Source: Stenotrophomonas raiganjensis (SeqCode) (GTDB taxonomy: Bacteria; Pseudomonadota; Gammaproteobacteria; Xanthomonadales; Xanthomonadaceae). Taken from it: DNA of 64,000 nt. Shown in pieces: positions 9,226 to 26,329 of the stretch. The position numbers were made by a program, and so were the translations under genes. Numbering within the stretch: position 1 is the stretch's first letter; the number at the start of each line of letters is the position of its first letter. The stretch covers positions 5,870 through 69,869 of the forward strand of contig NZ_JAUTXR010000181.1 in assembly GCF_030658505.1 (NCBI RefSeq). Direction: 5' to 3'. Below the pieces are notes generated by a model. The model was not told the origin of the DNA and searched no databases. It worked only from the letters and a program-made list of their open reading frames with translations.

Positions 9226-9252
9226 ACAAACAGGATCCCGCAAGGCACCTAC

Positions 9253-12003
9253 ATGTCCATCGACAAGACCCTACTCAAGCGTGGCCTCAAGCGGGTGGCG
9301 GCAAAGGTGCTGTCCATCAACTGGTTCGCACCGGTTCCCGATCGCCTGAAGCTGCTGGTTGCCCGTCGGGCGGGGTGCTGTGACTGGCACTGGTACGCGC
9401 GCTTCATCCTGCGTTCGCCCGGGGCGGCCGCCGAAGGCCCCAGCCACTTCCTGTCCTTTGGCAATGCCGAAGGGAAATCACCGAGCCCGCTGTTCGATCC
9501 GGCCTGGTACTGCGCACGTTTCGGCCTCAGGGCGTCCCCACTTGATGCCCTGATGCAGTACGTCTGCATCGGCGACCGCCTCGGCCTGGCACCCAGCCCG
9601 TGGTTCGATCCGCGCTACTGCCGGCGCACCGCACCGTCGTCCAGCGGCCTGCGGCCGGTGCTCGGCCAGTACCTGGTGGATTACCACAACTCGGGAACGC
9701 CACACCCATTGTTCGACCAGGACTGGTACCTCAACCAGTACCCGGACGTGCGCGACAGCGGCGCCAATCCGTTGGTGCATTTCCTCTATGACGGCATTCC
9801 CGAAGGACGCCTGCCCAATCCGTACTTCGCGCCGGCGTGGTATCTGGAAACCTATCCGGATGTGGGAGGCAACGACCCGTTCGCACATTTCTTCGCGCAT
9901 GGCGCGGCGGAAGGACGCAGCCCGGGGCCAGAATTCAACGCGCGACAGTATCTGGACCAGAATCCGGATGTTGCGCTGACCGGCATGAACGCGCTGGCGC
10001 ACTACCTGGCGGTGGGTCGCCGCGGTGGTCGCGAGCTGGGCAAGCGTCCCTTCTCGCTGTGCGATCTTGCCGCGCCCGTGGCGCCTGCCGACGCGCCGCT
10101 CCAGGACGGCGTGGTCGACATCGTCCTGCCGGTCTACCGCGGCCTGGAAGAGACGCGCAACTGCATCGATTCGGTGCTGCGCTCGCACAACCGCAGCCGT
10201 ACCCGGCTGCACATCTACAACGACTGCTCGCCCGAGCCGGAAGTGACCGCCTACCTGCGTGAGCTGGCCAGCCGCGAGCAGTCGGTACGCCTGGTCGAGA
10301 ACCCGCAGAACCTGGGCTTCGTGCTGACCGTCAATGCCGGCATGGCGCACGCCCTGCAGCAGGCCGACAGCATCGGTGCTCTCCTGCTCAACAGTGACAC
10401 GATCGTGACCGGTGACTGGGTCGACCGCATGGTTGCCCACCTAGGGGCCAATGTCGGCTCGGTCACGGCGCTTTCCAACAACGCTACGATCTGCAGCTAT
10501 CCCCAGCTGGGCGCCAACGCGCTGCCGAAGGAGATGGATGCGTCGGCGCTGGACCACCTGACCCGCCGCATCAATGCCGGTGTGGCCGTGGATGTTCCCA
10601 CCGGCGTCGGCTTCTGCATGCTGATCTCCCGCGCCGCGCTGGAAAAGGCCGGCCTGTTCGATGCCGAGGCTTTCGGCAAGGGCTACGGCGAGGAGAACGA
10701 CTTCTGCATGCGCTCGGGTCGTCTCGGTTTCCGCCATCGCTTGGCCATGGACGTGTTCGTCGAACACGTGGGTGAAGTGAGCTTCGCCGACGACAGCAAG
10801 CCCGGCAAGATCATCGCGCAGAAGATCATCGACGAGCGCTACCCCGATTACGGTTCGCAAGTTGCCCGGTTCTGTTCGATGGATCCGGGCTTCTCGGCGC
10901 GCGTGCGGCTGACCCTGGAGGTCTGGAAGGCGAGGGCGCGTCCGGTCTCGGTGCTGTTGACCCACACCTGGGGCGGAGGCACCGAGCGTGCCGTGCAGGC
11001 CATGCGTGCCTCGCTGGCCGAAACCGGCGAAGTGGTGATCGTACGGCCGATGGAGGACAACAACGGGTCGGGGCTGGTCAGCGTCAGCCATGCATCGGAC
11101 TTCGATGGCTTCGAGTTCCTGTTTCGCTACCGCACGCCCGACGAGCTGGCCGGGATGCTGCAGGCACTGGGCACCGGGACGCTGCAGATCCACCATCTGG
11201 TCGGGTTTGGCCCGTCGGTGCGTCGCGCGGTGGCGCTGACCGGGCTGCCCTACAGCTTCCACGTGCATGACAACTATGCGATCTGCCCGCAGATCACCCT
11301 GACCGACGCTCGCGGCAACTACTGCGGCGAGCCTGGTGAAAACGGCTGTGACAGTTGCATCGCCGAGCGCCCGTCCAACGGCGCGGCGGACATCCGCAAC
11401 TGGCGCGCCAACAACCAGTGGCCGCTGCTGGGTGCACAGGCAGTGTTCGCACCGAGCCGGGATGCGGCGCAGCGCATGCAGCGCTACACCGGCATTTCCG
11501 TGCAGACCGTTTACCACGAGTCGAGCATCGACACGAATCCGGGCCGGCTTGGGCGAGGCGCGCGGCCGTACCGGGTGCTGCTGCTGGGTGTGATGGCCGC
11601 GCACAAGGGCTTGAATCACCTGCTGGCCATTGCCGAGGAAGCGCGACGTATGCGTGCACCGCTCGCGTTCCACGTGATCGGCTATCCACAGACGGACGTA
11701 CCCAAGAACCCGGGATTCAGCTGGAGCGGTCCCTATGCGGAGCAGGACCTGGACGAGCTGATCGAGGCGCACGACCCCGATGCGTTCCTGTTTCTTTCCC
11801 AGGCCCCGGAAACCTATTCCTACACCCTGTCGCACGCCCTGCGCGATGGCCGGCCGATTGCCGCCAACCGCCTCGGTGCGTTCACCGAGCGGCTGGAAGG
11901 CGTCCCCAATGCACTGATGCTGGCCCATGACGCGACTGCGGCCGATGCGGTACAGGCGCTGGTGACGTGGCTGGAAGGTCTGTACGAAAAGGAAACCGCA
12001 TGA
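9253..12003 (+). CDS. Large multidomain glycosyltransferase (tandem repeats, GT2, GT4-like)
   Basis: The 916-residue protein has three parts. Residues about 44-262 hold six tandem repeats of roughly 37 residues with the consensus DxxWYLxxYPDVxxxG, PLxHFLxxGxxEGRxPxPxF. Residues about 285-510 form a GT2 domain (VDIVLPVYRGLEETRNCIDS; LLLNSDTIVTGDWVDRM; GYGEENDFCMR). The C-terminal third (about 555-910) resembles a GT4-type fold (VLLTHTWGGGTERAV; LLLGVMAAHKGLNHLL). Such fusions assemble O-polysaccharide on the cytoplasmic face, often as rhamnosyltransferases. The dTDP-rhamnose genes nearby fit that, but the sugar specificity is inference. It lies 27 bases after the methyltransferase gene with an AAGG ribosome site. 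Confidence 0.85.
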   Translation: MSIDKTLLKRGLKRVAAKVLSINWFAPVPDRLKLLVARRAGCCDWHWYARFILRSPGAAAEGPSHFLSFGNAEGKSPSPLFDPAWYCARFGLRASPLDALMQYVCIGDRLGLAPSPWFDPRYCRRTAPSSSGLRPVLGQYLVDYHNSGTPHPLFDQDWYLNQYPDVRDSGANPLVHFLYDGIPEGRLPNPYFAPAWYLETYPDVGGNDPFAHFFAHGAAEGRSPGPEFNARQYLDQNPDVALTGMNALAHYLAVGRRGGRELGKRPFSLCDLAAPVAPADAPLQDGVVDIVLPVYRGLEETRNCIDSVLRSHNRSRTRLHIYNDCSPEPEVTAYLRELASREQSVRLVENPQNLGFVLTVNAGMAHALQQADSIGALLLNSDTIVTGDWVDRMVAHLGANVGSVTALSNNATICSYPQLGANALPKEMDASALDHLTRRINAGVAVDVPTGVGFCMLISRAALEKAGLFDAEAFGKGYGEENDFCMRSGRLGFRHRLAMDVFVEHVGEVSFADDSKPGKIIAQKIIDERYPDYGSQVARFCSMDPGFSARVRLTLEVWKARARPVSVLLTHTWGGGTERAVQAMRASLAETGEVVIVRPMEDNNGSGLVSVSHASDFDGFEFLFRYRTPDELAGMLQALGTGTLQIHHLVGFGPSVRRAVALTGLPYSFHVHDNYAICPQITLTDARGNYCGEPGENGCDSCIAERPSNGAADIRNWRANNQWPLLGAQAVFAPSRDAAQRMQRYTGISVQTVYHESSIDTNPGRLGRGARPYRVLLLGVMAAHKGLNHLLAIAEEARRMRAPLAFHVIGYPQTDVPKNPGFSWSGPYAEQDLDELIEAHDPDAFLFLSQAPETYSYTLSHALRDGRPIAANRLGAFTERLEGVPNALMLAHDATAADAVQALVTWLEGLYEKETA

Positions 12004-13052
12004 AACAGCGATTCGGCAAGGAGCTGCGTCCTGCGCTGCGCTCGCAGTACGCCTTGCGGATTGCAGTGATCCCCGAGCGCTACGGCACGGTGATGTCGCC
12101 GTGCGCGAGCATCCGTCTGCACGCGTTCACCGAGCGCTTCGCTGCCGATGTCCGCTACCTGATGCCGGAAGAGATCGCTGCATTCAAACCGCACGCCATC
12201 CTGTGGAACCGGGGAGCGATCGAGGACGCCGACCGGATCGAGCAGATGGCCGTACTGGCCAGAAGGATCGGCGCGCGGCTGATCTATGACATCGACGACA
12301 ACCTGTTGGCGATGGATGAGCACCCCGAGCGCGATGCATACGCAAAGCTGATCAGCGCCGTGCGTGCGTCGATCGACGTGGCTGATGAAGTCTGGTGCTC
12401 GACGGAGATACTGGCATCTGAAATCCGGTCTGCCGGCGGTAACGCCGTTCTCATGCCAAACGCCCTGGATCCGGACCTATGGGGTGCCCCGCGCACGCCA
12501 GTGCAACCAATGCCGAAGTTGAAACTGGTGTACATGGGTACAAGGACCCACGACGAGGACTACGCATTCCTGCAGAGGGTGCTGGGTCGTCTGCAGGCAT
12601 CGCGCCCTGGCAGCTTTTCGTTGACCCTGATCGGGGTGAATGCGGCGTCGGTAGCACTGCCTGACTGGGTCGATGTGCAGTCGCCGCCAGCTCATGTAGG
12701 AGCATCTTATCCCGCGTTCGTGCGCTGGTTCGTCGGCCAAGGCCCATTTGACCTCGGCCTGGCACCGTTGATGGCCACCACGTTCAATCGGGCAAAGAGC
12801 GGCATCAAGGTGCTTGATTACGCCGCGATCGGCGTGCCTACGCTTGCGTCGGACGTCCCTGCATACAGTGCCGGGGCAGTCGGTGACTGCTTGCTGGTCG
12901 AGAACGACGAAGGGGCATGGCTGGATGTCCTGCAGCAGGTGGTCGACAGCAGGGCCATCCTGGAGCCGATCCGGCAACGTATCCAGCATTGCGTTGGTGA
13001 AGGGCATTTTGCCGAGGCGGTTGAACGGCGTTGGTTGCGCATCACTGCCTGA
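12000..13052 (+). CDS. Glycosyltransferase, GT4/GT1 type
   Basis: The 350-residue protein shows a GT-B pattern in its C-terminal half: LVYMGTRTHDEDYAFLQRVL, GPFDLGLAPLMATTFNRAKS and GIKVLDYAAIGVPTLASDVP, which matches the nucleotide-sugar site of GT4 enzymes. The N-terminal half (MSPCASIRLHAF; LIYDIDDNLLAM) fits a group of LPS and capsule glycosyltransferases. It overlaps the large glycosyltransferase gene by 4 bases with AAGGAAA upstream and ends the plus-strand LPS operon. Donor and acceptor are unknown. The second half of the gene has slightly lower GC than its neighbours, in keeping with the mosaic nature of this locus. Confidence 0.85.
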   Translation: MKQRFGKELRPALRSQYALRIAVIPERYGTVMSPCASIRLHAFTERFAADVRYLMPEEIAAFKPHAILWNRGAIEDADRIEQMAVLARRIGARLIYDIDDNLLAMDEHPERDAYAKLISAVRASIDVADEVWCSTEILASEIRSAGGNAVLMPNALDPDLWGAPRTPVQPMPKLKLVYMGTRTHDEDYAFLQRVLGRLQASRPGSFSLTLIGVNAASVALPDWVDVQSPPAHVGASYPAFVRWFVGQGPFDLGLAPLMATTFNRAKSGIKVLDYAAIGVPTLASDVPAYSAGAVGDCLLVENDEGAWLDVLQQVVDSRAILEPIRQRIQHCVGEGHFAEAVERRWLRITA

Positions 13053-13057
13053 CGTGA

Positions 13058-13086
13058 CGCCACCTGCGGGAGATCCGCAGGTGGCG
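13058..13086. terminator. Perfect palindrome between convergent LPS operons
   Basis: A 12-bp perfect stem closes on a 5-base loop (GAGAT) in the 41 bases between the two convergent operons. It could stop transcription from both sides. It has no long T-run on either strand, so it may act as an RNA end-protecting hairpin. Confidence 0.55.
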
Positions 13087-13093
13087 CCTTGGA

Positions 13094-15175
13094 TCAAGGC
13101 GTCAGGTTCGGCATTGCGATCCACAGAAACGAACAGGCGCCCAGTACCACGGCTGCAGCCACGGCATGATGTGCCAGCCGCTCGAGTTGCGAGCCTGGTC
13201 TCAGGTGTGAGAGTTGGGCGCCGAGCAGTACACAGATGCCGAGCACGTACCTGCCTTGTGCCTGGAAATCATAGGTCCAGCTGTGCAGCAGGGACGCGCC
13301 CAGCAGGCTGACCGCCGCGCCGGCAGCCAGCAGGAGCTGGCTGCGTCCCAGTTGCAGCGGCTGCGACGTCGCTGCAGTGCATAGCGCCAGAAGCACCAGC
13401 AGCGTAGTCAGTCCCCAGATCGCCTGGTAATAGGCCAGTGGAGCGTAGTACTGCATGTAGCCGTAGACGCCGAACAGGCTTTTGGCCGTGGCCACCTGCC
13501 ATAGCAGGGGAGGCTGGAGCATCTGCGGGAGCGAATAGCCCTGTTCGTACATGCGAAGGCCGGGGGACGGTGCCGCGTCGCTGGGCTTGAAACCGGGAGC
13601 TGCATGGACTTCACGTAGATGATCGACCAGCTCCGCCTTCTGCGAGCCACTGCCGTTGCGCAGGACATCCACTGCGATCCATGGAGCTGCCAACGCCAGA
13701 GCCAGCGCAAACAGCGCGCCGAGGCGGTAGGCAGGCGCCAGCATCCGGCTGCGGGCAAGTCTCCAGCCGTCGTAAGCCAGGATCATCACCGAAGTGGCGG
13801 ACAGGACGGCCAGGAGCCAGCCGAGTCCGTAAGCTTGATGAAGTGCGTGTCCTCCGGCCGCCCACAGAATTCCCGACGTGCAGACGATCGCCATGGCGAG
13901 CGACGAGCGGACGGGCAGGCGCAATCCGGCTGATGCCAGCGTGGTGGCGATGAAGACCGCGACTGGCCAATAGTTCCGCTTGGAGATGATAAGCAGGCCC
14001 AGGCACAGCGCGAACAGCAGGGCGTGCACGATCACCACCCGCTCGGCGTGGCGCTCACCCAGCAGGTAGCTGCGCAGCGGACTCTCGCGTGTCAACGCAA
14101 TGCCTGCAGCAAGGCTTGCGGCGGCCAGAGGAAGCGCATCGCCGTTCATGTACGAAAAGACATACCACGCCTGCGGCGTGACCAGGACCGGTACGAGAGT
14201 GAACGGCGAGAGACGCAGCAGGAAAACGGCTGCGATCAGTAATAGCAATATCGATGCCTGATAGAGCCTGAATCCCTGACGTTCGGTCAGACCAGCCTGC
14301 GCTGCGACGTTGCTCGCTTTGCCTGCGAACAAATACGTCACGTTCCATTCGGCGAGATAGCTGACGCCGTAGGGACTCGCCTGGTACGAGGGCAGCATCT
14401 CCGGCGAATCAAGCGCCGGCGGCAGCCAATGACTGTTGAAATAACGTGCACCCGCCTCATGCAGATCCTCGTCAGGGCTGACCGAGGGAGAGAGGGTGGC
14501 AAACCCTGCGAGCGCGAGCACCAGCGATGCGCAGATCAGTGATGGCCATGCATAGCTACCGGTATGAGCCATCTGCAGGCCCATCGCAATCGCAAGACAA
14601 AGGCCGAGGCCGACCCAGGCCAGCCGGGCAAGTCGATGCTGCAAGCGCGATGCATTTTCCGCAGGCGTGGGAAGTGCCATCACCAGTTGCGGGTCGCCAG
14701 CATCTGGCAGCAACTGGTAGCGCCCATCCTGGCCTAGCGCTTCGATGGGAACGAGCTCGTTCAGATGGGTCGGGACAAGCGGGGCCACAGCCGAGGGCAT
14801 TGAGCCCTCGATCCGCACATCGCGTACAGCGACGGTCGACGCGCTGGTGGGAGGATCCAGGCGAAGCGTGAATGTACGTCCCGGTGGGAGCTGCAGCTGC
14901 AGATGCGAGCTGCCTGCGGGCAGCTCCCGCGTCACTGACCCGGCCTCGGAGAAACCATTGCCCTGGTCGAAGAAGACCTGAAATGAGCCGGCAGCCGGCA
15001 GTTCCACGTCGAGCGTGAGCTCGGCATTGCTGTACCGGCGGGAGCCCGCCAGCACGACCAGCAACGCGGCGATGACCAGAACGATTAGTTGGCCTCTACG
15101 GAACCGAGCCAACCCCTGCCACCAGCTGGAACACTGATGGAGCAATCCGGCGGCCGGTTGGGAGGCGCTTGTCAT
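13094..15175 (-). CDS. DUF2142-like multi-spanning membrane protein, candidate GT-C glycosyltransferase
   Basis: The 693-residue protein has an N-terminal membrane anchor (LIVLVIAALLVVLAGSRRY), an extracytoplasmic beta-rich region at about 50-170 and then about ten or more membrane segments. Two motifs match DUF2142: SPDEDLHEAGARYF after the second membrane segment and DFQAQGRYVLGICVLL near the end. DUF2142 proteins are thought to be GT-C-type transferases that use undecaprenyl-phosphate sugars in the periplasm. Its place as last gene of an operon with a GT2, an SMR-like protein and a sugar aminotransferase supports transfer of a modified sugar to LPS. Family assignment is by motif; function is inferred. 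Confidence 0.7.
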   Translation of the reverse strand: MTSASQPAAGLLHQCSSWWQGLARFRRGQLIVLVIAALLVVLAGSRRYSNAELTLDVELPAAGSFQVFFDQGNGFSEAGSVTRELPAGSSHLQLQLPPGRTFTLRLDPPTSASTVAVRDVRIEGSMPSAVAPLVPTHLNELVPIEALGQDGRYQLLPDAGDPQLVMALPTPAENASRLQHRLARLAWVGLGLCLAIAMGLQMAHTGSYAWPSLICASLVLALAGFATLSPSVSPDEDLHEAGARYFNSHWLPPALDSPEMLPSYQASPYGVSYLAEWNVTYLFAGKASNVAAQAGLTERQGFRLYQASILLLLIAAVFLLRLSPFTLVPVLVTPQAWYVFSYMNGDALPLAAASLAAGIALTRESPLRSYLLGERHAERVVIVHALLFALCLGLLIISKRNYWPVAVFIATTLASAGLRLPVRSSLAMAIVCTSGILWAAGGHALHQAYGLGWLLAVLSATSVMILAYDGWRLARSRMLAPAYRLGALFALALALAAPWIAVDVLRNGSGSQKAELVDHLREVHAAPGFKPSDAAPSPGLRMYEQGYSLPQMLQPPLLWQVATAKSLFGVYGYMQYYAPLAYYQAIWGLTTLLVLLALCTAATSQPLQLGRSQLLLAAGAAVSLLGASLLHSWTYDFQAQGRYVLGICVLLGAQLSHLRPGSQLERLAHHAVAAAVVLGACSFLWIAMPNLTP

Positions 15176-16305
15176 TCCGCCATGCCCAGGACTTCATCGG
15201 CGGCTGCGAAGATCGCATCGAGATGATCCTCAACGCCGATCCACAACGGCATGCGGACCAGCCGCTCGCTGAGCTCGTTGGTGTTGCGCAGATCGCCGTG
15301 TGTACGCCCTGCCTGCAGTCCAGCCGGGGCGGAATGCAGCGGGATGTAATGGAACACGGTCTGCACGCCGCGGGCCTTCATTTCGCTTATGAATCGCGTG
15401 CGGGCATCGAGGTCCGGGACCAGCATGTAGAACATATGCGCGTTGTGCTGGCAGTCGTCCGGCACGACCGGCCGACGCAGGTGGCCGGCGGCCTCATGCG
15501 GAGCCGCCCACTGCTGATACCGCTCCCAGATTGCCAGTCGACGCGCGGTGATCTGGTCTGCTTCCTCTATCTGCGCGCAGAGGAACGCCGCGGTGATCTC
15601 ACCGGGAAGGAACGATGAGCCAACATCGACCCAGGTGTACTTATCGACCTGTCCGCGGAAGAAGCGGCTGCGATTCGTGCCCTTCTCGCGCAGGATCTCG
15701 GCGCGCTCGCCAAACTCAGCGTCACGACAGAGAAGAGCACCGCCTTCCCCCGAGATGATGTTCTTGGTCTCATGGAAGCTGAAGGCGCCCAGCTCCCCGA
15801 TGGTGCCCAGTGGCCGCCCCTTGTAGCTGGACATGATGGCCTGGGCAGCATCTTCGACAAGCGCCAGCCCATGACGTGCAGCGATGTCGACCAGGGTATC
15901 CATCTCACATGCGACGCCCGCATAGTGGACTGCGCAGATGGCCCGGGTGCGCGGGGTGATCGCTGCTTCGACCAGGCGTTCATCCAGGTTCAAGGTGTCT
16001 TCACGGATGTCGACGAACACCGGGACCGCGCCCCGCAGAACAAACGCGTTGGCGGTGGAAACGAAGGTGTAGGACGGCATGATCACTTCGTCACCGGGCT
16101 GCAGGTCGAGCAGCAGCGCCGCCATCTCCAGCGCGGCCGTGCAACTGTGGGTCAGCAGCGCCCGCTGCGCCCCGGTGCGCTGTTCAAGCCAGGCGTGGCT
16201 GCGCTTGGTGAACTGACCGTCGCCGGACAGGTGGCCGTTGGCGTGCGCCTGCGCAATGTGCCAGAGCTCACGACCAGTCATGAAGGGCTTGTTGAAGGGA
16301 ATCAA
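15172..16305 (-). CDS. wecE: dTDP-4-amino-4,6-dideoxygalactose transaminase (WecE/RffA)
   Basis: The 377-residue protein matches WecE along its length: IPFNKPFMTGRELWHI, LSGDGQFTKRSHAWLEQR, LTHSCTAALEMAALLLDLQP, VEDAAQAIMSSYKGRPLGTI, the PLP lysine in FSFHETKNI, EKGTNRSRFFRGQVDKYTW and NAHMFYMLVPD. WecE transfers an amino group from glutamate to dTDP-4-keto-6-deoxyglucose to give dTDP-Fuc4N. RmlB, encoded nearby, makes that substrate. The start is a TTG at 16305, with GCGAGG upstream and the same IPFNKP start as WecE; an upstream ATG at 16371 would overlap the neighbouring gene. It overlaps the DUF2142 gene by 4 bases. Confidence 0.9.
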   Translation of the reverse strand: MIPFNKPFMTGRELWHIAQAHANGHLSGDGQFTKRSHAWLEQRTGAQRALLTHSCTAALEMAALLLDLQPGDEVIMPSYTFVSTANAFVLRGAVPVFVDIREDTLNLDERLVEAAITPRTRAICAVHYAGVACEMDTLVDIAARHGLALVEDAAQAIMSSYKGRPLGTIGELGAFSFHETKNIISGEGGALLCRDAEFGERAEILREKGTNRSRFFRGQVDKYTWVDVGSSFLPGEITAAFLCAQIEEADQITARRLAIWERYQQWAAPHEAAGHLRRPVVPDDCQHNAHMFYMLVPDLDARTRFISEMKARGVQTVFHYIPLHSAPAGLQAGRTHGDLRNTNELSERLVRMPLWIGVEDHLDAIFAAADEVLGMAE

Positions 16306-16339
16306 GAGTGTGCCTCGCAGGGTGGGCGTTGGAATGGTG

Positions 16340-16705
16340 TCAGGCGACCGATCGTGACAGCACGACCACACCCAGCATGATGATCAGCGTTCCGGCGATC
16401 TTGTATCCATCCAGCTGCTCACGGAAGATCACGCTGGCAAACAGCGCAACCAGGAAGAAATTGATCGCCATGTACGGGTAGGCCCGGCTGATCGGCATCT
16501 TGCTGATGGCCGCCATCCAGCACAGCGATGCACCGAAGGCTGCCGCAAAGGCGGAAATGACCCATGGCTTGAGCAGCAGTTGCAGCACGTTCAACGGCTG
16601 CAGCGGCGCGGAAAGCAGGTGGCCGTGGACGCCTACCTGCCACTTCAGGATCAGCTGGCCGTAGACCGTCAGCATGATCGTCAACGCGATGAAGAGGTAG
16701 CTCAT
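16340..16705 (-). CDS. SMR/EamA-type small membrane protein, candidate lipid-linked sugar flippase
   Basis: The 121-residue protein has four membrane segments, as in EmrE/SMR and ArnE/ArnF proteins: YLFIALTIMLTVYGQLILKW, WVISAFAAAFGASLCWMAAI, ISRAYPYMAINFFLVALFAS and GTLIIMLGVVVLSRS. The AYPYMAINFF stretch is typical of the family. ArnE/ArnF move undecaprenyl-phosphate-Ara4N across the inner membrane. Here it is encoded with an Und-P-type GT2 and an aminotransferase, so flipping of a lipid-linked aminosugar is more likely than drug efflux. The call is by context; the sequence alone fits either. Confidence 0.75.
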   Translation of the reverse strand: MSYLFIALTIMLTVYGQLILKWQVGVHGHLLSAPLQPLNVLQLLLKPWVISAFAAAFGASLCWMAAISKMPISRAYPYMAINFFLVALFASVIFREQLDGYKIAGTLIIMLGVVVLSRSVA

Positions 16706-16709
16706 CGTC

Positions 16710-17936
16710 TCAGTTCCCTGGCAGGGTGATCTTGCGGGTCAGCACGTCCAGCAGGTCGGTGCCGTCCCAGACCGGGTGGAAGTCGAGTGCGCGGCCGAAA
16801 GGCACGATGCGGTCGATGGCACGATTACCGAGCCGGTCAAGCAGCTTGATCAGCGATTCCCGCGGGAAACCCTGCACGACGAGCGTCTGGTCGCGATCAT
16901 CCAGCTGTGGCGCCAGTGCTTCCAGCGTGTCCAACTGAACGTCCACCACCAGCCCGTGGCCACTCTGCAGCTCGCGCAGGTTTCCATCGGCGCGGGCAGC
17001 ATCGAGCGTAAGGGGATAGGTGCCCAGTGACGTGCCCGAATGCAGCCCATCGGAGGAGAGTGCGGCCATCAGGTGGGCATCGGTCACCCGGGCCATCATC
17101 GCGGCGGGCTCATCTGCGACGGCGCCGGATTGCGAGCGTACCGCAGGCCAGAACCGTGCACGCGCGGCCTCCACTGTTTCCTGCGCGCCAACCCAGTACA
17201 GGGTGCGGGGTGAAGAGCACGCCTGCTGGCCGAACCAGAGAACATCGTTGACGAACCGGTGGGCAAGCTGCTGCAGGTCCGCGTCGCTGCTCTGCAGTAC
17301 ATGCGCGGCATCGATGGCTGCCACACCGAATCGATCCGGGAAGGCGAGTTCAACGGCCAACGGCGCCAGCGGCAAGGAACGGATCTTGGCGACCGTTGCG
17401 TCGCCGCCCCAGATGATCCGCGCATGGCAGCTGCGGGAGATCAACGTAGTCACCGCGTCATCATGCGGATAGGTCAGTAGCACGCTGCGCTGCAGGACGT
17501 CGGCATGCAGCCCTTCCTCGCGCATGGCGTGCAGGATCGAGACCAGTGCCTCGCGTTGGGGACTGTGCTTCTGCGACAGGCGGGCTACGTTGCGATTGCC
17601 GGCCAGCACGGACATCAGCCAGGCATAGGCGAACAGCACATCGACGTTGGCCGGCGCAAGATGGAACACCAGGCCACGTGCCAGCAGGTGTTCGGTGGAC
17701 GGCGCCAGCAGGCGCCGCGACAGCTGCTCCTGCGCCGCCGGACGGAACCAGTGCGCCAGCGTCGCCAGTTCGGGATGCTCGCGCAGCACCGGCAGCGCGA
17801 ACACACGTCGTGCGAAATCGGCAACGAACGCGCGCGCCTCCGCACTGAAGGGTGACAGCGGCGGCAGCGTGGCCAGGCGCGCCAGCTGATCCGGCAGCGC
17901 CGCGTCTGCGTCAATGGAGAACAGGATCTGTGTCAT
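16710..17936 (-). CDS. LuxC-like acyl-CoA/acyl-protein reductase
   Basis: The 408-residue protein fits the LuxC (acyl-CoA reductase) family, related to aldehyde dehydrogenases. FGQQACSSPRTLYWVG holds the expected active-site cysteine, and VFHLAPANVDVLFAYAWLMS and AGNRNVARLSQKHSPQ are typical of the N-terminal cofactor region. LuxC reduces an enzyme-bound acyl group to an aldehyde with NADPH. No luciferase genes (luxAB) are present. LuxC/LuxE homologues are known in polysaccharide clusters, where their product is not established. It overlaps the LuxE-like gene by 4 bases. Confidence 0.8.
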   Translation of the reverse strand: MTQILFSIDADAALPDQLARLATLPPLSPFSAEARAFVADFARRVFALPVLREHPELATLAHWFRPAAQEQLSRRLLAPSTEHLLARGLVFHLAPANVDVLFAYAWLMSVLAGNRNVARLSQKHSPQREALVSILHAMREEGLHADVLQRSVLLTYPHDDAVTTLISRSCHARIIWGGDATVAKIRSLPLAPLAVELAFPDRFGVAAIDAAHVLQSSDADLQQLAHRFVNDVLWFGQQACSSPRTLYWVGAQETVEAARARFWPAVRSQSGAVADEPAAMMARVTDAHLMAALSSDGLHSGTSLGTYPLTLDAARADGNLRELQSGHGLVVDVQLDTLEALAPQLDDRDQTLVVQGFPRESLIKLLDRLGNRAIDRIVPFGRALDFHPVWDGTDLLDVLTRKITLPGN

Positions 17937-19036
17937 GCGCGGGGTACCGTTCGTGTGTCGCTGCAGCCGCGGACTTCAACGTTCTTGATGCGGCCCAGTA
18001 CGCTGAAATGCTTCCCGAGTCGACCGCAAGGGCAATCGTCCTCGCCGTGGATCACGCCCAGGTCTTCGGTGAGCAGGCTGTGCCCCGGGTAACTGCCAGG
18101 CAGCAGGCTCAGCACCTGCACGGCACCTGCGGTTCCATTGGCTGTTGGGCTGAGATCCTGCAGGTCACGAATGATCACATCGGCATAAGCCGGTGCATGA
18201 AGATGACCGTGCTCGCACTCGAAGAAAATCGATCCGACCTGCTCGACCATGCCGTAATAATTGTGGACGCGATCAATACCGAAGGTGCTGGAGAGCGAGG
18301 CCTTGTAAGCGGCATTGTCGACCTTCTGTTCGTCCATCTTCTTCCAGCCGCCGCCATGCACCAGCATGCTGCCTTCGGGGAAGCGCAGCGTTACGCCGTC
18401 GCGTGCGGCAGCCTGGACAAAGGACTGCCAGACGATGAAGGTGAAGCCGAACAGCAGTACCGGTTCGTCCGGGGCGTTGGCCAGCCAGTGCGCCAGAGCT
18501 GCCCAGTCGGGCTGCAGCTGTTCGTCGAGCAGGTACAGATGGTCGCGGCCGAAGTTGGAGAAGCCCAGGATGCCGGCTGCGCGCGCGTTGAAGCGGCTGC
18601 GATCGCGCAGGAACGAGTCGTCGTCGATCACCAGCATGCGCATCCGGCGGTTGCCGGCAAAGTGGGAGAAGATCCGCGTCAGGGCGCGGGTCTGCGCGCG
18701 TGCGGTTTCCGCGTCGAGGAAGATCCTCGAGACGGCAGCGCCCGTGGTGCCGCTGGAAACCAGCGTGCGCAGTACCTGGTCGTCGGCGACGCTCTTCAGG
18801 TCGATCTGCTTGAACAGCCGGACCGGCAGCCAGGGCAGCGATTCCAGCGAGTCCGCCTGGCCGCCGCGCCACAATGCATCGAGCATGGCGCGGTAGGGCG
18901 GGCAGGACAGGTGGTGATGCCGGGTGAGCGACTGCAGGCCGTCCAGCAGCCATTCGCGCTTGGCCTGGCGGCCCAGCCCATAGACCTCCGCTTCCAGCGC
19001 AGCCGCTGCCAGCGAACTGTCCGTGCCTGCGTTCAT
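17933..19036 (-). CDS. LuxE-like acyl-protein synthetase
   Basis: The 367-residue protein matches the LuxE acyl-protein synthetase family. It shows VSSGTTGAAVSRIFLDAETA as the adenylate-forming motif and FGFTFIVWQSF, SMLVHGGGWKKMDEQKV and FGIDRVHNYYGMVEQVGSIF further on. LuxE activates a carboxylic acid with ATP and hands it to the reductase LuxC. The next gene encodes a LuxC-like protein, so the two probably form the same activation and reduction pair here. The acyl chain is unknown. It overlaps its upstream neighbour by 4 bases. Confidence 0.8.
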   Translation of the reverse strand: MNAGTDSSLAAAALEAEVYGLGRQAKREWLLDGLQSLTRHHHLSCPPYRAMLDALWRGGQADSLESLPWLPVRLFKQIDLKSVADDQVLRTLVSSGTTGAAVSRIFLDAETARAQTRALTRIFSHFAGNRRMRMLVIDDDSFLRDRSRFNARAAGILGFSNFGRDHLYLLDEQLQPDWAALAHWLANAPDEPVLLFGFTFIVWQSFVQAAARDGVTLRFPEGSMLVHGGGWKKMDEQKVDNAAYKASLSSTFGIDRVHNYYGMVEQVGSIFFECEHGHLHAPAYADVIIRDLQDLSPTANGTAGAVQVLSLLPGSYPGHSLLTEDLGVIHGEDDCPCGRLGKHFSVLGRIKNVEVRGCSDTRTVPRA

Positions 19037-20430
19037 TGACGTGCTCCTTGCGCGGCGAGCTGCCGCAGCGACAGATAGTCGATCTTGCCGCTGGACAGCA
19101 GCGGCAGCGAATCCAGATGGATGCAGCGGACCAGACCGCCGAACAGCTTGTAGCGCGCCTGCACCAGTTGGCGGACGTTGTCCTGCGCAGCGGGGGCATC
19201 GCCATGGCTGAATACGACCAGATCGTCGTCATTGCCCGAGCAGGCGATCTGACGGCCGAGCGCGGTCGACAGCATCGCTTCCACTTCGTCGAGATTGACG
19301 CGGTTGCCGGAGATCTTCAGGAACCGTTTGGCGCGCCCGGTGATGTAATGGAACCCTTCGTCATCCACACGGGCCAGATCGCCCGTGCGAAGCAGGCCGT
19401 GCAGTTCGTCGGGGCGCGCAAGTCCTTCGCGCGAGGTGGCATAGCCCATCATGACATTGGGCCCCTCGTAGACCAGTTCACTGCTTTCCGCATCGACATG
19501 CATACGACCACCCGGCACCGCAATGCCGATGCTGCCGATCTTGTCCAGCAGCCGCTCGGAGGGAACATAGCTGATGCGGGGCGAGGCTTCGGTCTGGCCG
19601 TACATGACGAAGAACTGCAGGCCGTGGTCCTTGGCAGACTCGGCAAAATGCTGGACCAGTTCGTCGCGCAGGCGGCCACCGGCCTGGGTCAGCATGCGCA
19701 GGCTGGGCAGCTGCAGGCGCGCAAGGCCCATGCGGCGCAGTATTTCGTAGGTGGCCGGAACCCCGGACAGGGAGGTGACCGCATTGCCGCGTGCGGCTTC
19801 CCAGAACTCGCGGGTCATCAGGCTGTCTTCGCTCAGCACCACGCAGCCACCACAGCCCAGATGGCTGTTGAGGATGGACATGCCAAACGAATAGGCCAAC
19901 GGCAATGTGGTGATGGCGCGGTCTTCGGGACCCAGGCCGAGATAGGCAACGATCGATGCCGTGTTCGCGGCCAGGCCCTGCGCGGACAACCGCACCAGCT
20001 TGGATGAACCCGTACTGCCCGATGTGCTCAGCAGCAGCGCCAGGTCGCCATGCGGCGATGGGAGCGTGAGGTGGGTTTCGCGCAGGTGGATGCCCAGAGT
20101 GCCTGCGACATGCACCGTCCGGTAACCCGCCGGCGCCGTGCCCGGCATGGCAAGCCAGTCCGGCGCGTACTGGGTCAGCAGCGCGTCCAGCAGCTCCGGG
20201 TCGACATCGGGCTGGATCAGCAGGGGTACCTGACGGGTACTGCGCAGGGCGCCCAGATAGAGCGCGACCGCGTCGATCGTGCTGGGCATCGCCAGCACGC
20301 CCATGCCCCGCCCGGCGGGCAGGTGCGTGGCCAGGGTATCGGCCAGCACGCCCAGTTCGTCATAACTGAGCGTCCGTGTTCCCTCGATGAGCGCAGTGCG
20401 GTTGCCGTGCGCCAACTGCCAGAACTGCAT
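19033..20430 (-). CDS. AMP-dependent acyl-CoA/acyl-ACP ligase
   Basis: The 465-residue protein is an adenylate-forming enzyme. It shows the P-loop LLLSTSGSTGSSKLVRLS near residue 135, YGQTEASPRISYVP (motif A5), LRTGDLARVDDEGFHYITGRAKRFLK (read as the A7-A8 region), GNRVNLDEVEAML and a C-terminal lysine in SSGKIDYLSL. It activates a carboxylate as acyl-AMP and passes it to CoA or to a carrier protein. An acyl carrier protein gene two positions upstream makes acyl-ACP the likely product. It abuts the SDR gene without spacing. Substrate unknown. Confidence 0.85.
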   Translation of the reverse strand: MQFWQLAHGNRTALIEGTRTLSYDELGVLADTLATHLPAGRGMGVLAMPSTIDAVALYLGALRSTRQVPLLIQPDVDPELLDALLTQYAPDWLAMPGTAPAGYRTVHVAGTLGIHLRETHLTLPSPHGDLALLLSTSGSTGSSKLVRLSAQGLAANTASIVAYLGLGPEDRAITTLPLAYSFGMSILNSHLGCGGCVVLSEDSLMTREFWEAARGNAVTSLSGVPATYEILRRMGLARLQLPSLRMLTQAGGRLRDELVQHFAESAKDHGLQFFVMYGQTEASPRISYVPSERLLDKIGSIGIAVPGGRMHVDAESSELVYEGPNVMMGYATSREGLARPDELHGLLRTGDLARVDDEGFHYITGRAKRFLKISGNRVNLDEVEAMLSTALGRQIACSGNDDDLVVFSHGDAPAAQDNVRQLVQARYKLFGGLVRCIHLDSLPLLSSGKIDYLSLRQLAAQGARQ

Positions 20431-21177
20431 TCAGACCACCATCTGTCCGTCGATGCCGATGATCTGGCCTGTGATGTAGGCGGAGCTGTCGCCGAGCAGG
20501 AACGCGACCAGCTCGGCCACTTCGCGCGGCGTTCCTGCGCGGCCCATGCCGATCGATTCCACCCGCTTGGCGTGGGCGGCCTGCGGCATGGCGCGGGTCA
20601 TGTCGGTATCGATGAAACCCGGCGAAATCGCATTCACGCGAATGCCCTTGGCAGCCAGTTCCTTCGACGCGGATCGGGTTGCACCGACCAGTGCCGCCTT
20701 GCTTGCCGAATACAGGCTCAATCCTGCAGCGCCATTGACGCCCATGATCGAGACGAGGTTGACGATGCTGCCCTTCCGGGTTCGCGCCATCAACCGGCTT
20801 GCATACTGCATCATCATCAACGGCGCTTTGACATTCACCGCCAGCACGCGGTCGATGTCTTCGGCACGGATCATGCCCAGAAGACCTTCGTGCAGGACCC
20901 CTGCGTTGTTCACCAGCCCATCCAGGCGGCCGAACTGGTTGAATATCTGCTTGAACACGGCGGCCACCGCATCGACGTCGGCCAGATCGATGACCGCGAC
21001 CATCGGTTCCGGTGCCCCCTGTGCGGTGACCTCGGCGGCGAGCGCGCGCAGCGCGTCGTCATCGCGCGCGACGATCACCAGCTGGACGTGCTGTGCTGCC
21101 AGCAGTTCGCAGATGGCCCGGCCGATGCCTCGCGAGGCCCCGGTAACCACGACAACGGGAGCGTGGGTGCCCGTCAT
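20431..21177 (-). CDS. SDR-family 3-oxoacyl-ACP reductase-like enzyme
   Basis: The 248-residue protein is a classical short-chain dehydrogenase with VVVTGASRGIGRAICELL (cofactor site), VNNAGVLHEG, the catalytic serine in NLVSIMG, and YSASKAALVG with the catalytic tyrosine and lysine. It is close to FabG, which reduces 3-oxoacyl-ACP to 3-hydroxyacyl-ACP with NADPH. Between an ACP gene and an acyl ligase gene, it probably shapes the acyl group, for example into a 3-hydroxyacyl unit. The ATG at 21177 is used because upstream in-frame codons lie inside the ACP gene. A sugar-reductase role is possible. Confidence 0.8.
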   Translation of the reverse strand: MTGTHAPVVVVTGASRGIGRAICELLAAQHVQLVIVARDDDALRALAAEVTAQGAPEPMVAVIDLADVDAVAAVFKQIFNQFGRLDGLVNNAGVLHEGLLGMIRAEDIDRVLAVNVKAPLMMMQYASRLMARTRKGSIVNLVSIMGVNGAAGLSLYSASKAALVGATRSASKELAAKGIRVNAISPGFIDTDMTRAMPQAAHAKRVESIGMGRAGTPREVAELVAFLLGDSSAYITGQIIGIDGQMVV

Positions 21178-21179
21178 TG

Positions 21180-21428
21180 TCAGACAGCAGCGCCGTGCTT
21201 GCGCAGGATTTCGCGCGCCTTGCCGACCGAGCTCATGTCGATCACTTCGTCCATGTCGATCATGACGTTGAACGCTTCTTCCAGTGCGGCGACCACGGAC
21301 ATGTGCGCGATCGAATCCCACTGCGGAATGGTGTTGTAGCGCAGTTCGTCAGTCACCTGGGAGGCATCGATGCCCAACACGCGGGCGAACACGGCTACAA
21401 CCTGGTCTTCGTTGCTGGAGTTGCTCAT
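21180..21428 (-). CDS. Acyl carrier protein
   Basis: The 82-residue acidic protein fits an acyl carrier protein: the phosphopantetheine serine is S39 in PQWDSIAHMSVVAALEEAF. The DSI replaces the DSL of the fatty-acid AcpP, as is common in dedicated carriers of polysaccharide and secondary-metabolite clusters. It sits between the GNAT and SDR genes, overlapping the first by 4 bases. It would need a host phosphopantetheinyl transferase. It is probably not the housekeeping AcpP, which lies with fab genes. Confidence 0.85.
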   Translation of the reverse strand: MSNSSNEDQVVAVFARVLGIDASQVTDELRYNTIPQWDSIAHMSVVAALEEAFNVMIDMDEVIDMSSVGKAREILRKHGAAV

Positions 21429-22186
21429 AGGAATTTCCGGAACCCGTTAAGAGATGAATTGAATTGGAAGCCAAGCCGGGCATACAGATTGATGATGCCG
21501 GTATTGGCGGCGGACACCAGCGTCGTGCAGCGCTGGATATCCCTGGTAGCCAGCGATTGCAGGGCAGTGACCCATAGCGGCATGGCCAGCATGGCGTACG
21601 GGGCGGCTGCACCTGTCAGCAGCAGCTCTGCCCTGTGCTCGTCGGCGAAGACTCGTTCTGCATGGAAGCCAATGACACGGCCGCGTGATTCCGCGGTTTG
21701 GACCAGCTGGGCGTTGACCAGGTCCTCGATCCAGTTGGCGGTGCGAAGACGTGCGTGTGCAGGGTCGATGGCAGGGTCTTCCAGAAAACGGCCATGCCCG
21801 AAGTCGTCGGCGGCGATGGACCGCAGCAACGGAATGTCCGCAGCAATGGCCGGCCGCAGCGTAGGCAGCATCCCGCGCGGGACCGCAGGCAGTTGCCCCA
21901 TGCCGCTGCGTGACACGGTCAGTGACGTTTCAACGAACTGGAAGCCACAGCCGAGCACCGCAGCACGCAACGCATGCGCATTGGCATCGATGCGACCGAA
22001 CAGGTAGTGGACACCCTGCTGCCTGGCCCAGGCCTGGGCCTGGTCGAGCATTGCGGCCGCCTGGTCCGTGGTGGCCGCATCCAAACGGACGATCTCGGCA
22101 GTGGTGCAGCCCAGCGCGCGCTCATCCCAGGGCGTCAGGCGCGCCTCGACCACGCTGCCGCCTGCCTGCAGAGACAAGTGGCTCAT
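21425..22186 (-). CDS. GNAT N-acyltransferase, WecD/RffC-like
   Basis: The 253-residue protein has the two-part layout of WecD (dTDP-Fuc4N acetyltransferase): an N-terminal half with LTPWDERALGCTTAEIVRL and a C-terminal GNAT half with GRFLEDPAIDPAHARLRTAN, VIGFHAE and STLVSAANTG-like CTTLVSAANTGIINLYARLG. WecD acetylates the 4-amino group of the sugar made by WecE. A WecE gene lies in the same operon, so this enzyme is the likely N-acyltransferase. Adjacent ACP and ligase genes raise the possibility that it uses an acyl-ACP and not acetyl-CoA. That last point is inference. Confidence 0.75.
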   Translation of the reverse strand: MSHLSLQAGGSVVEARLTPWDERALGCTTAEIVRLDAATTDQAAAMLDQAQAWARQQGVHYLFGRIDANAHALRAAVLGCGFQFVETSLTVSRSGMGQLPAVPRGMLPTLRPAIAADIPLLRSIAADDFGHGRFLEDPAIDPAHARLRTANWIEDLVNAQLVQTAESRGRVIGFHAERVFADEHRAELLLTGAAAPYAMLAMPLWVTALQSLATRDIQRCTTLVSAANTGIINLYARLGFQFNSSLNGFRKFL

Positions 22187-23154
22187 GGAGCTTCTCCGCG
22201 AACGGTCGTTTCAGAGACGATGTAGTAGGGGCGCCGTTGCACATTGCGGAAGACCTGGCCGACGTACAGCCCCACAACGCCCATGGAGAACATCATCAAT
22301 CCGCCAATCAGCCAGATTGCGGCGATGATCGAGGTGTAACCCGCAACCTGGATGTCGCCGTCCCACCATCGCCAGATGCTGATGGCCACCATGACGAAGG
22401 CGACCAGCGCGCAGAACATGCCAGTGCCGGCCACCATGCGCAGCGGCTTCTCCGAGTAACCCAGGGCGATGTTCATGGCCAGCCGCAACAGGCGCCGCAG
22501 GGTGTAGGACGATTCACCCTCTGCGCGCTGCTGGTGGCGTACGGGAAGCTTGCCCGTGCGGAAGCCGGCCCATTTCACCATCAGCGGGAACGAGCGATCA
22601 CGTTCCGGCATTGCACAGACCGCGTCGATGACCTTGCGGTGGAATATGCCGAAATTGGCCGTGGAAGGGTCCTGCGGCACGCCGGTCAGCCAGCCCAGCA
22701 CCGCAAAGAACCCCCACGACGAGAGGCGCTTGAGCGGGGTGTCCATGCGCTGTATCCGCTGCGCGAACACGGCTTCAAACTGCTCATCCACCGCCTTGCG
22801 GTACAGGCCGGGAATTTCTGCAGGAACATCCTGCAGGTCGCAATCCATGACGACCGTCCAACGGCCCTGGGCATGCTCGATGCCGGCTGAAATGGCCGAG
22901 TGCTGCCCGAAATTTCGCGAGAGCTTCAGGCCCTTGAGCCAAGGCCGGCTGGCGGCCAGCTCCTCGATGCGCGGCCATGCGCCGTCAGGGCTGGCGTCGT
23001 CGACCAGGATCATCTCGAACGACACGCCCATGGATCCTGCCGCAGCCTGGACCTGATCGACGAGATCTTCCAGGCACCCTTTACAGCCATAGACAGGCGC
23101 GACGACCGACAGTTCGACCGGCGGCTGCGGAGGGGAAGGCGGAACAGCGGTCAT
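22183..23154 (-). CDS. Undecaprenyl-phosphate GT2 glycosyltransferase (GtrB/ArnC-like)
   Basis: The 323-residue protein has a GT2 domain (VVAPVYGCKGCLEDLVDQV; EMILVDDASPDG; LKLSRNFGQHSAISAGIEHA; VVMDCDLQDVPAEIPG, with the DxD region) and two C-terminal membrane segments, ending GLYVGQVFRNVQRRPYYIV. This layout is that of GtrB and ArnC, which load a sugar on undecaprenyl phosphate at the inner face of the inner membrane. It is the first gene of the minus-strand LPS operon. I chose ATG 23154; an in-frame ATG at 23211 would add 19 residues without family character but lies just after a candidate promoter. Confidence 0.85.
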   Translation of the reverse strand: MTAVPPSPPQPPVELSVVAPVYGCKGCLEDLVDQVQAAAGSMGVSFEMILVDDASPDGAWPRIEELAASRPWLKGLKLSRNFGQHSAISAGIEHAQGRWTVVMDCDLQDVPAEIPGLYRKAVDEQFEAVFAQRIQRMDTPLKRLSSWGFFAVLGWLTGVPQDPSTANFGIFHRKVIDAVCAMPERDRSFPLMVKWAGFRTGKLPVRHQQRAEGESSYTLRRLLRLAMNIALGYSEKPLRMVAGTGMFCALVAFVMVAISIWRWWDGDIQVAGYTSIIAAIWLIGGLMMFSMGVVGLYVGQVFRNVQRRPYYIVSETTVRGEAP

Positions 23155-23243
23155 GGAGTGGTGGGCCTCGGCGCCATCTTCAGGGAAATCGGAACCATCG
23201 CGCCGGCGCATCCGCCTGCAGGGGGTAAATCCGACAACGGAAG

Positions 23244-23302: not shown

Positions 23303-23309
23303 GCTTGAG

Positions 23310-24248
23310 TCAGAGCGCCTTTTCCAGCTCCGGCAGGATCGCAAACAGATCCCCCACCAGGCCGATATCGGCAATCTCGAAGATCGGCGCATCGCCGTCC
23401 TTGTTGATCGCGACGATCGTGCCGGCATCCTTGATGCCGGTCAGGTGCTGGATCGCACCGCTGATGCCGACGGCCACGTACAGTTCCGGCGCGATGATCT
23501 TGCCGGTCTGGCCGACCTGCAGGTCGCTGGGCACGTAGCCGGCATCGACCGCGGCGCGCGAGGCGCCGACGGCGGCACCGAGCTTGTCGGCCAGCTGGAA
23601 GATGACCTTGAAGTTCTCTTCCGAGCCGACGCCACGGCCGCCGGAGACCACGCGCTTGGCGCTCTGCAGGTCCGGGCGGTCGCTGGCACCGGCGGCCAGG
23701 CCGACGAAGCGGGTGTGGGTCGGCAGCGCAGCGTCAACGCTGGCCGCTTCGATGGCGGCACTGCCGCCCTGGGCGGCTTCCGGCCACGACGCGGCGCGCA
23801 CGGTGGCGACCACGATCTGGTCGGCCGGGGCTTCCACGGTGATGATCGCGTTGCCGGCGTAGATCGGGCGCTTGAAGGTATGGCTGCCTTCAACGCTCAT
23901 CAGGTCGGAGACCTGGTTGACGCCGAGCAGGGCAGCCACGCACGGCATCAGGTCCTTGCCGAAGGTGGTGGACGGGCCGAACACGTGGGTGTAGCCCTTG
24001 GCCAGCTGTGCGATCTGCGGCGCCAGTACCTGGGCGATGGCCTGCGCGTTGGCGGCGTTGGCGACGGTCAGGACCTTGGCGACGCCGGCGATCTTCGCGG
24101 CCTCGGCGGCGACCGCGGCCGGGTCGGCGGCCAGCACCAGCACGTCGATGCTGGCGCCGCTGATGGCGGCAGCAGCGCTGACGGTCTTGGCGGTGGCGGC
24201 GTTGAGCTTGCCGTCGTGGTGCTCGGCGATGACGAGAATCCTGCTCAT
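23310..24248 (-). CDS. etfA: Electron transfer flavoprotein alpha subunit
   Basis: The 312-residue protein is EtfA. The C-terminal FAD site is visible in [20 protein letters not shown] followed by [20 protein letters not shown], and the motif [20 protein letters not shown] is typical. With EtfB it forms a soluble heterodimer that takes electrons from acyl-CoA dehydrogenases and passes them to ETF:quinone oxidoreductase. The start codon overlaps the etfB stop by one base (TAATG). In Xanthomonas this gene is the fixed border of the variable LPS locus; the same holds here. Confidence 0.95.
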
Positions 24249-24994: not shown

Positions 24995-25259
24995 CTGGTA
25001 CGGGGTCCTTCACTAAACAGAGAGAACATCCGGTCCTGGAACAGCAACCGGTTCGGGGGTGGGACCCCGATTCTAGCTGGCTTGGGGCGACCATGCGAAT
25101 GCGTATGGTGACTGCTTCGGCTGTTGCGATGCAGCAATGCAGTCGGCCTGAGTTCACTTGTGTGATCGCGTGTTACCGCAGGCCCGTTGTATCCTTAAAC
25201 GTTGCATTGTCGTGGCCATGAAGGCCCCGTCTCACGAATCACGATCAGGAGAACAGGTA

Positions 25260-26315: not shown

Positions 26316-26329
26316 GGCTGGGAGAGAAC

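Follow-up and report, generated by a model that had tools for sequence, protein, structure and literature searches.

The DNA analyzed here, a stretch of 64,000 nucleotides from contig NZ_JAUTXR010000181.1 of Stenotrophomonas raiganjensis (the window), carries an O-antigen locus in which ten coupled minus-strand genes probably form a three-component, post-polymerization O-antigen modification cassette that also encodes its acyl supply. An open reading frame (ORF) check of the window found all ten genes, at positions 13094 to 23211, in the tight arrangement that a preliminary description of this DNA had noted; the end it gave for the block, 23154, is a downstream ATG inside the GT2 gene, and the block extends to 23211. 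The ten genes are as follows, with conserved residues counted among the 14 relatives compared.

22183..23211, minus strand: GT2, predicted polyprenyl-phosphate N-acyl-aminosugar synthase of the GtrB/ArnC type (PF00535, 74.7 bits; alternative start at 23154)
21425..22186, minus strand: GNAT-A, predicted N-acyltransferase acting on dTDP-Fuc4N
21180..21428, minus strand: dedicated acyl carrier protein, ACP (PF00550, 29.9 bits; Ser39 kept in 14 of 14)
20431..21177, minus strand: FabG-like SDR reductase (PF13561, 200.9 bits; YxxxK kept in 14 of 14)
19033..20430, minus strand: AMP-forming acyl ligase, predicted to load the ACP (PF00501, 132.7 bits; Lys449 and P-loop Gly138 kept in 14 of 14)
17933..19036, minus strand: LuxE-like acyl-protein synthetase (PF04443, 165.4 bits; Cys358 kept in 14 of 14)
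16710..17936, minus strand: LuxC-like thioester reductase (PF05893, 90.5 bits; Cys240 kept in 14 of 14)
16340..16705, minus strand: SMR-like four-segment protein, candidate flippase for a sugar linked to undecaprenyl phosphate (ArnF and ArnE models, 41.7 and 35.4 bits)
15172..16371, minus strand: WecE-type aminotransferase, predicted dTDP-Fuc4N synthase (597.5 bits against a cut-off of 375; alternative TTG start at 16305)
13094..15175, minus strand: GT-C-like glycosyltransferase of 693 amino acids (aa) with an N-terminal beta-sandwich (predicted fold)

Neighboring genes either overlap by 4 bp (GT2/GNAT, GNAT/ACP, ligase/LuxE, LuxE/LuxC, and WecE/GT-C) or lie 0 to 4 bp apart (ACP/SDR, with the SDR ATG at 21177, SDR/ligase, and LuxC/SMR). 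The start of WecE is ambiguous, being either GTG 16371, which overlaps the SMR gene by 32 bp, or TTG 16305. A scan for the coupled-start pattern showed nothing of note, with 16 matches against 13.8 expected. Ten catalytic residues are expected in seven of the proteins, at sites named after their motifs, and all ten are kept in 14 of 14 relatives.

The O-antigen locus sits between a cystathionine gamma-synthase-type gene (4239 to 5423) and two genes that we take, from their position, to be etfA and etfB; etfA has no NCBIfam match at E 1e-60, and in all the loci compared, within the genus and in the wider family, the pair is found close to the block. The genes for the Wzm/Wzt exporter and the O-antigen backbone are on the plus strand and the ten coupled genes on the minus strand, and the lipopolysaccharide (LPS) setting proposed earlier holds. 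Papers on the variable LPS locus of Xanthomonas name its flanking genes in the same way. The surrounding features are the following.

5420..7598, plus strand: Wzm/Wzt-type O-antigen ABC exporter (PF01061, 90.8 bits; PF14524 Wzt_C, 103.3 bits; ABC_tran, 80.1 bits)
8059..13052, plus strand: O-antigen backbone genes, encoding a methyltransferase, a two-domain glycosyltransferase (916 aa), and a 361-aa putative glycosyltransferase
23310..24994, minus strand: etfA and etfB, conserved edge of the locus
25158..26315, plus strand: RmlB, substrate supply for WecE (TIGR01181, 507.7 bits against a cut-off of 365.1)

The 361-aa backbone protein has no family match. RmlB, RmlA, RmlC, and RmlD together span 25158 to 28661, each scoring over its TIGR model cut-off.

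Proteins for sugar synthesis and transfer

The aminotransferase is of the WecE type, as had been proposed, with 61% identity to Escherichia coli WecE against 33% to ArnB. It exceeds the NCBIfam cut-offs of two WecE models (PRK11706, 597.5 bits against 375; TIGR02379, 593 against 434.85), fails the ArnB model (210 bits against a cut-off of 631), and scores 483 bits with the solved structure of WecE and 172 bits with that of ArnB. The source suggested earlier for its substrate, RmlB, is encoded next door.

The assignment of an undecaprenyl-phosphate-type GT2 and a candidate SMR flippase also stands. The GT2 scores 180 and 148 bits with the PgfS and ArnC models, under their cut-offs of 500 and 529, and is 31% identical to E. 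coli ArnC; with two hydrophobic segments at its C terminus and a DxD motif kept in 14 of 14 relatives, it has the features of a membrane-anchored polyprenyl-phosphate GT2, which is its predicted activity. The SMR protein (25% identity to E. coli ArnE, E 3e-10; similarity to EamA) has the four hydrophobic segments of a small multi-span flippase, and flipping is its predicted role.

The 693-aa protein had been labeled DUF2142, a label that has to be dropped, as there is no Pfam or NCBIfam match at E 0.01 (DUF4225 matches at chance level, E 0.33) and none of 20 family members matches DUF2142, which we take to be PF09913, at E up to 1. The suggested likeness to ArnT and GT-C enzymes survives in the fold: the predicted model is GT-C-like, as expected of the third member of a three-component system, with a beta-sandwich at about residues 49 to 173 that is presumably periplasmic. 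A relation to ArnT by sequence was rejected, as blastp gave a chance-level match (E 0.13) and profile comparison a probability of 0.4%.

The acyl genes and the GNAT

In a profile comparison, the LuxE-like protein matches LuxE (7xc6_E) with 85 bits, its GCS cysteine falling on the LuxE GCS cysteine, and Cys240 of the LuxC-like protein is invariant in six aligned sequences. Both cysteines, presumably the catalytic residues, are kept in 14 of 14 relatives, as is expected of LuxCDE enzymes. The two proteins score under the LuxE and LuxC equivalog cut-offs (59.3 against 550 and 29 against 750), and by these scores they would not be members of the Lux system.

The GNAT has the WecD fold in a predicted model, in agreement with its earlier description as WecD-like. 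It scores under the NCBIfam WecD equivalog cut-off (TIGR02382, 28.2 against 195.1), and a sequence search of the PDB gave no match at E 10. An argument from the CoA-binding loop that this GNAT uses acyl-ACP was abandoned: the strict pattern [QR]xxGx[GA] is absent from GNAT family A (0 of 112), from family B (0 of 4), and from WecD, and therefore does not discriminate. At a looser column of this loop, Gly is found in 12 of 112 members of family A, in 4 of 4 of family B, and in WecD, which is at most a hint bearing on acyl-ACP use.

A clue to the acyl group may come from Aeromonas piscicola AH-3, of the island type that carries the same acyl module, in which a 376.14 Da pseudaminic acid derivative and a 102 Da unit of unknown nature are described (PMC7874193). 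By our own mass arithmetic, exchanging one acetyl group of the Pse5Ac7Ac residue (316.127) for C4H6O3 gives 376.148, and both the 102 Da unit and the 376.14 Da derivative fit C4H6O3 by mass. This fit, together with the acyl precedent of Vibrio cholerae discussed below, favors dihydroxybutyryl as the most economical guess for the module's product, other compositions of the same mass being possible.

Conservation of gene content and order

In a sample of 91 Stenotrophomonas genomes, with orthologues called by our own identity thresholds, LuxE is found in 9, and 8 of these 9 have a single order, GT2-GNAT-ACP-SDR-ligase-LuxE-LuxC-SMR-WecE, near etfA. The gap between etfA and GT2 is 2.9 kb in genome G021 and less than 0.5 kb in the other seven. 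A GNAT search of 395 genomes of the family, limited to the six top candidates of each genome, found 11 matches, of which 9 are strong and 2 are weak; the strong ones comprise 3 genus genomes already counted and 6 others, all with the nine genes ordered alike beside etfA, and in all 9 GNAT-A lies between GT2 and the module. The nine-gene block is therefore present in 14 genomes, namely the window, seven congeners, and six other members of the family, with single proteins down to 46% identity.

Small variations occur within the block. Three carriers (G503, G553, and G564) have extra sequence around SMR, and three others (G021, G006, and G034) have an extra gene between SMR and WecE. In the one tested, this gene encodes an S-adenosylmethionine (SAM) methyltransferase (locus L010, 12330 to 12956), and ORFs of the same length lie at L011 (12623 to 13249) and L012 (6806 to 7429); this suggests a methylated version of the sugar in one sub-group. 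In G020, the acyl ligase match is split into two overlapping pieces (L009, 10243 to 11639). The ninth LuxE genome, G097, has a different set beside etfA (L025, 5046 to 12552), in which another aminotransferase (27%) and GT2 (29%) accompany a hexapeptide PglD-like acyltransferase and an ACP-SDR-ligase-LuxE-LuxC module that is more distant; neither SMR nor GNAT-A was matched in this set.

Orthologues of SMR (46 to 100% identity; next best 35%) and WecE (76 to 100%; next best by score 34%) are each found in 12 of the 91 genomes, and these are the same 12; weaker relatives at E 0.001 occur in 43 of 91 for SMR and 91 of 91 for WecE. The acyl module is present in eight of the 12, and in the remaining four (G092, G027, G071, and G098) a single other GNAT stands between GT2 and SMR instead; these alternative GNATs are 57 to 86% identical to one another and have no significant match to the window GNAT.

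The position after WecE is less uniform. It holds a protein of the window GT-C family in only 5 of the 12 clusters, another large membrane protein (from two further families) in 6, and none directly downstream in 1 (G027), the role of these other families being assumed from position and hydrophobicity. A sixth match to the window family, weak and partial, lies outside the 12 clusters, in G016, and the family recurs at 36% identity in G577, a genome of another genus. The ten genes do not move as one block: nine keep one order, and the GT-C gene goes with the backbone genes. The proposal was said to fail if the SMR and DUF2142 genes were absent from most clusters with the aminotransferase and GT2; this condition does not refute it, as SMR is present in 12 of 12 WecE genomes, and in 11 of these the gene after WecE encodes a large membrane protein.

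Natural exchanges between relatives

Three congeners show where these parts come apart. From 4338 to 16704, which takes in the exporter, backbone, GT-C, WecE, and SMR genes, G092 runs parallel to the window at 79% identity, and it does so again at 86% from 23307 to 29057; in place of the intervening GT2, GNAT, and acyl genes it has a single different GNAT and a GT2 that is 52% identical. Its SMR and WecE are 96% and 93% identical to those of the window, its backbone genes 75 to 84%, and its GT-C 76%. In G033 and G099, collinearity with the window extends from 15188 to 29177 (95%) and to 28828 (92%), respectively, and breaks at the WecE/GT-C boundary; their donor genes are 94 to 100% identical, their GT-C is 35 to 36% identical, and the backbone genes have no match in the approximately 4 kb fetched beyond it. 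The outer ends of collinearity (4338, 29177, 28828, and 29057) are set by the fetched stretches, and those on the inside are genuine. The window thus has a mosaic structure, its donor half and its acceptor half meeting at SMR-WecE, and in relatives the acyl half and the attachment half are exchangeable independently.

GT2 identity follows the acyl genes: it is 78 to 99% among genus genomes with the module, 71 to 97% among those without, and 49 to 55% across. GT2 forms two clades, which match the acyl type in each of the 12 genus genomes; SMR and WecE are not split in this way. The GT2 proteins of the six other family genomes are 62 to 85% identical to the window GT2 and 45 to 53% to the G092 type. 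The exact correspondence between GT2 clade and acyl type makes it probable that the sugar is acylated before it is loaded on the lipid, and on the simplest reading GT2 would read the acyl group, SMR would tolerate both versions, and GT-C would follow the acceptor.

The acyl module beyond the family

A LuxE profile scan of species genomes matched at least 595 stretches, of which 543 were confirmed and the best 80 analyzed; these are the loci most like the query, some of them short, called by our own thresholds, and the counts are not frequencies. All five module genes (ACP, FabG-like SDR, AMP ligase, LuxE, and LuxC) are present in 59 of the best 80. Of the same 80 loci, 12 have GT2, 8 have SMR, 11 have WecE, 5 have GNAT-A, and 1 has GT-C. 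GT2, SMR, and WecE occur together in 7, among them all five GNAT-A loci, and 66 have none of these partners. Four loci (L027 to L030) repeat genomes already counted (G033, G061, G527, and G553), and the new cases of GT2, SMR, and WecE with LuxE/LuxC among the best 80 are Pelomonas, which has all nine genes rearranged, Curvibacter, and Saccharibacillus, the last two with no GNAT-A above threshold. In many further loci among the best 80 the module stands with other partners.

The Pelomonas set (L032, 2495 to 17210) lies near a UbiA-type gene, a gene for a FAD-binding protein, and a PglL/Wzy-type ligase gene, and the sugar or its acceptor may be a different one in this genus. In Saccharibacillus (L053, 5769 to 15819), a ligase-LuxE-LuxC set is oriented head to head with WecE, SMR, and GT2. 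We take this genus to be Gram-positive and without LPS, so that the partnership is not tied to LPS.

DISCUSSION

The preliminary description called the system Arn-like, a comparison to the modification of lipid A with Ara4N that we do not uphold. An aminotransferase, an ArnC-like GT2, an ArnE/F-like SMR protein, and a protein with an ArnT-like fold are indeed shared. The aminotransferase, however, is of the WecE and not the ArnB type, and in a tblastn search of the window with E. coli ArnA and ArnD, ArnD was not found and ArnA matched only the RmlB region, at 23%; moreover, there is one SMR gene where Arn has two, and the GT-C protein is unrelated to ArnT by sequence. Elsewhere in the same genome (L195 on contig C157, 8423 to 9745), two tandem SMR-like genes lie next to a DegT aminotransferase-like gene, the surrounding genes are of kinase, hydrolase, class III aminotransferase, and FemAB-like types, and tandem SMR matches occur in 35 further genus genomes. 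As a separate Arn operon, L195 was rejected, there being no ArnA, ArnC, ArnD, or ArnT match in the 16-kb stretch.

The better comparison is with Gtr-type periplasmic glycosylation by GtrA, GtrB, and a GT-C protein, as in the pentofuranose system of Citrobacter (Kelly et al. 2024, PMC11127046). Both have a polyprenyl-phosphate-sugar synthase, a small flippase, and a GT-C protein in an O-antigen locus, and in the published case a side branch is added after polymerization (PMC11127046). Unlike in Gtr systems, the sugar predicted here is an N-acyl-4-amino-4,6-dideoxyhexose, its synthesis and acyl supply are encoded in the same operon, and the GT-C protein belongs to a family with no Pfam match and an extra beta-sandwich.

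The acyl genes resemble those of flagellin glycosylation islands in Aeromonas group II (PMC7874193) and Enterobacteriaceae (PMC4875605), which have ACP, 3-oxoacyl-ACP reductase, AMP ligase, LuxE, and LuxC; in an Aeromonas locus that we compared (L062), these genes are in the order of the cassette. The module in those islands is tied to pseudaminic acid and flagellin, whereas in the cassette it stands with WecE, a WecD-fold GNAT, GT2, SMR, and GT-C in an LPS locus.

The tetronate genes of V. cholerae O1 likewise bring together ACP, ligase, and LuxE/LuxC kinds, the comparison with RfbK, RfbL, and RfbN being one of gene kinds. We take RfbN to be a LuxE/LuxC-type protein and RfbM to be an iron alcohol dehydrogenase, standing where the cassette has its SDR. 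A scan with PF04443, in which LuxE proved rare across the class (six matches in 229 genomes, five over the cut-off; one, under the cut-off, in 14 control genomes), was of no help in finding a cholera-type gene. A gene table of Vibrio vulnificus names an 'acyl protein synthase/acyl-CoA reductase RfbN' (PMC11264103). The cholera genes are a precedent for an acyl supply of this kind that uses a C4 acid (PMC3441752, PMC12208996), the acylated sugar there, perosamine, being the O-antigen repeat itself, unlike the predicted decoration here.

The assembled pathway had been described as unfamiliar. Within the open-licence PMC literature, a scope that leaves most subscription papers outside, this applies to the whole combination with its built-in acyl supply, which we did not find there; both halves are of known kinds, with published precedents (PMC11127046, PMC7874193, PMC4875605, PMC3441752, PMC12208996). 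No Stenotrophomonas O-antigen structure for comparison was found in the same literature.

We infer the following route from the gene kinds, the predicted folds, and the covariation among relatives, which together suggest that the cassette works like a Gtr three-component system. RmlB and WecE would make dTDP-Fuc4N; the ligase, ACP, LuxE, LuxC, and SDR would produce a short, reduced (hydroxylated) acyl-ACP, from which the WecD-fold GNAT would acylate the sugar amine at the dTDP-linked stage. GT2 would then move the N-acyl-Fuc4N onto undecaprenyl phosphate, acting as an acyl checkpoint, the SMR protein would flip the lipid-linked sugar outward, and the GT-C protein would attach it to O-antigen chains exported by Wzm/Wzt. 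That the acceptor is the polymerized O antigen is suggested by the covariation of GT-C with the backbone genes.

The same lipid-linked sugar might instead be attached to the LPS core, to lipid A as by ArnT, or to another surface polymer, given that GT-C folds serve many acceptors, that the Pelomonas block lies near genes for a PglL/Wzy-type ligase, UbiA, and a FAD-binding protein, and that a related set occurs in the presumably LPS-free Saccharibacillus. However, the GT-C protein changes with the backbone genes, remaining 76% identical in G092, where these are shared, and dropping to 35 to 36% in G033 and G099, where the two neighboring genes fetched are unmatched and the donor genes stay at 94 to 100%. 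An acceptor in lipid A or core would not predict this, and we regard a destination other than O antigen as quite improbable. Still harder to credit is a division of the block into two unrelated functions, with GT2, SMR, and GT-C adding a hexose in the Gtr manner, and WecE and the acyl genes making an acyl-aminosugar for cytoplasmic backbone transferases. Gtr-type hexose addition is well established (PMC11127046), and GT2 and SMR are distant from any characterized enzyme, but the GT2 clades follow the presence of the acyl module exactly in the genus, the SMR and WecE orthologues always occur together there, and GNAT-A invariably stands between GT2 and the module in the strong family matches.

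The nature of the module's product leaves somewhat more room for an alternative. The LuxE and LuxC proteins of luminous bacteria use long-chain acids, and the product might be a long-chain acyl group, giving a liposugar, or an aldehyde reductively joined to the amine, giving an N-alkyl sugar: LuxC would yield an aldehyde, and the SDR could reduce the resulting imine. The Aeromonas authors themselves proposed a 'liposugar component' (PMC7874193). N-alkylation, however, would make the ACP, the ligase, and the WecD-fold acyltransferase superfluous; a long chain is at odds with the C4 acid of the cholera precedent (PMC12208996) and with the 376.14 Da sugar of Aeromonas, whose mass is that of pseudaminic acid with one acetyl and C4H6O3, a group that the module may make. 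On balance, we consider either of these products unlikely and prefer a short hydroxyacyl group.

More tentatively, and with less than even confidence, we propose that the LuxE/LuxC-ACP module makes short reduced hydroxyacyl-ACPs (C4 dihydroxybutyryl, +102 Da, tetronyl-type) for amino sugars across phyla. In Stenotrophomonas, it would be wired to three-component transfer with GT2 as the acyl checkpoint, and the donor half (GT2, GNAT, and acyl genes) and the acceptor half (GT-C and backbone) would recombine as interchangeable units around the SMR-WecE core, changing the O-antigen type in two independent dimensions. The Pelomonas GT2, which is only 32% identical to that of the window although both the module and GNAT-A are present, speaks against a wider rule linking GT2 to the acyl group.

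If correct, our interpretation would give a role to a five-gene set (ACP, FabG-like SDR, AMP ligase, LuxE, and LuxC) of scattered occurrence among phyla, about which little has been established, and it would add acylated amino sugars to the range of three-component glycosylation. The exchanges seen among relatives form a comparison set, with one donor combined with different GT-C proteins and one GT-C with different donors, which makes the distinction between an acyl-reading and an acceptor-reading enzyme directly testable. For Stenotrophomonas, two independent axes of O-antigen variation would be predicted.

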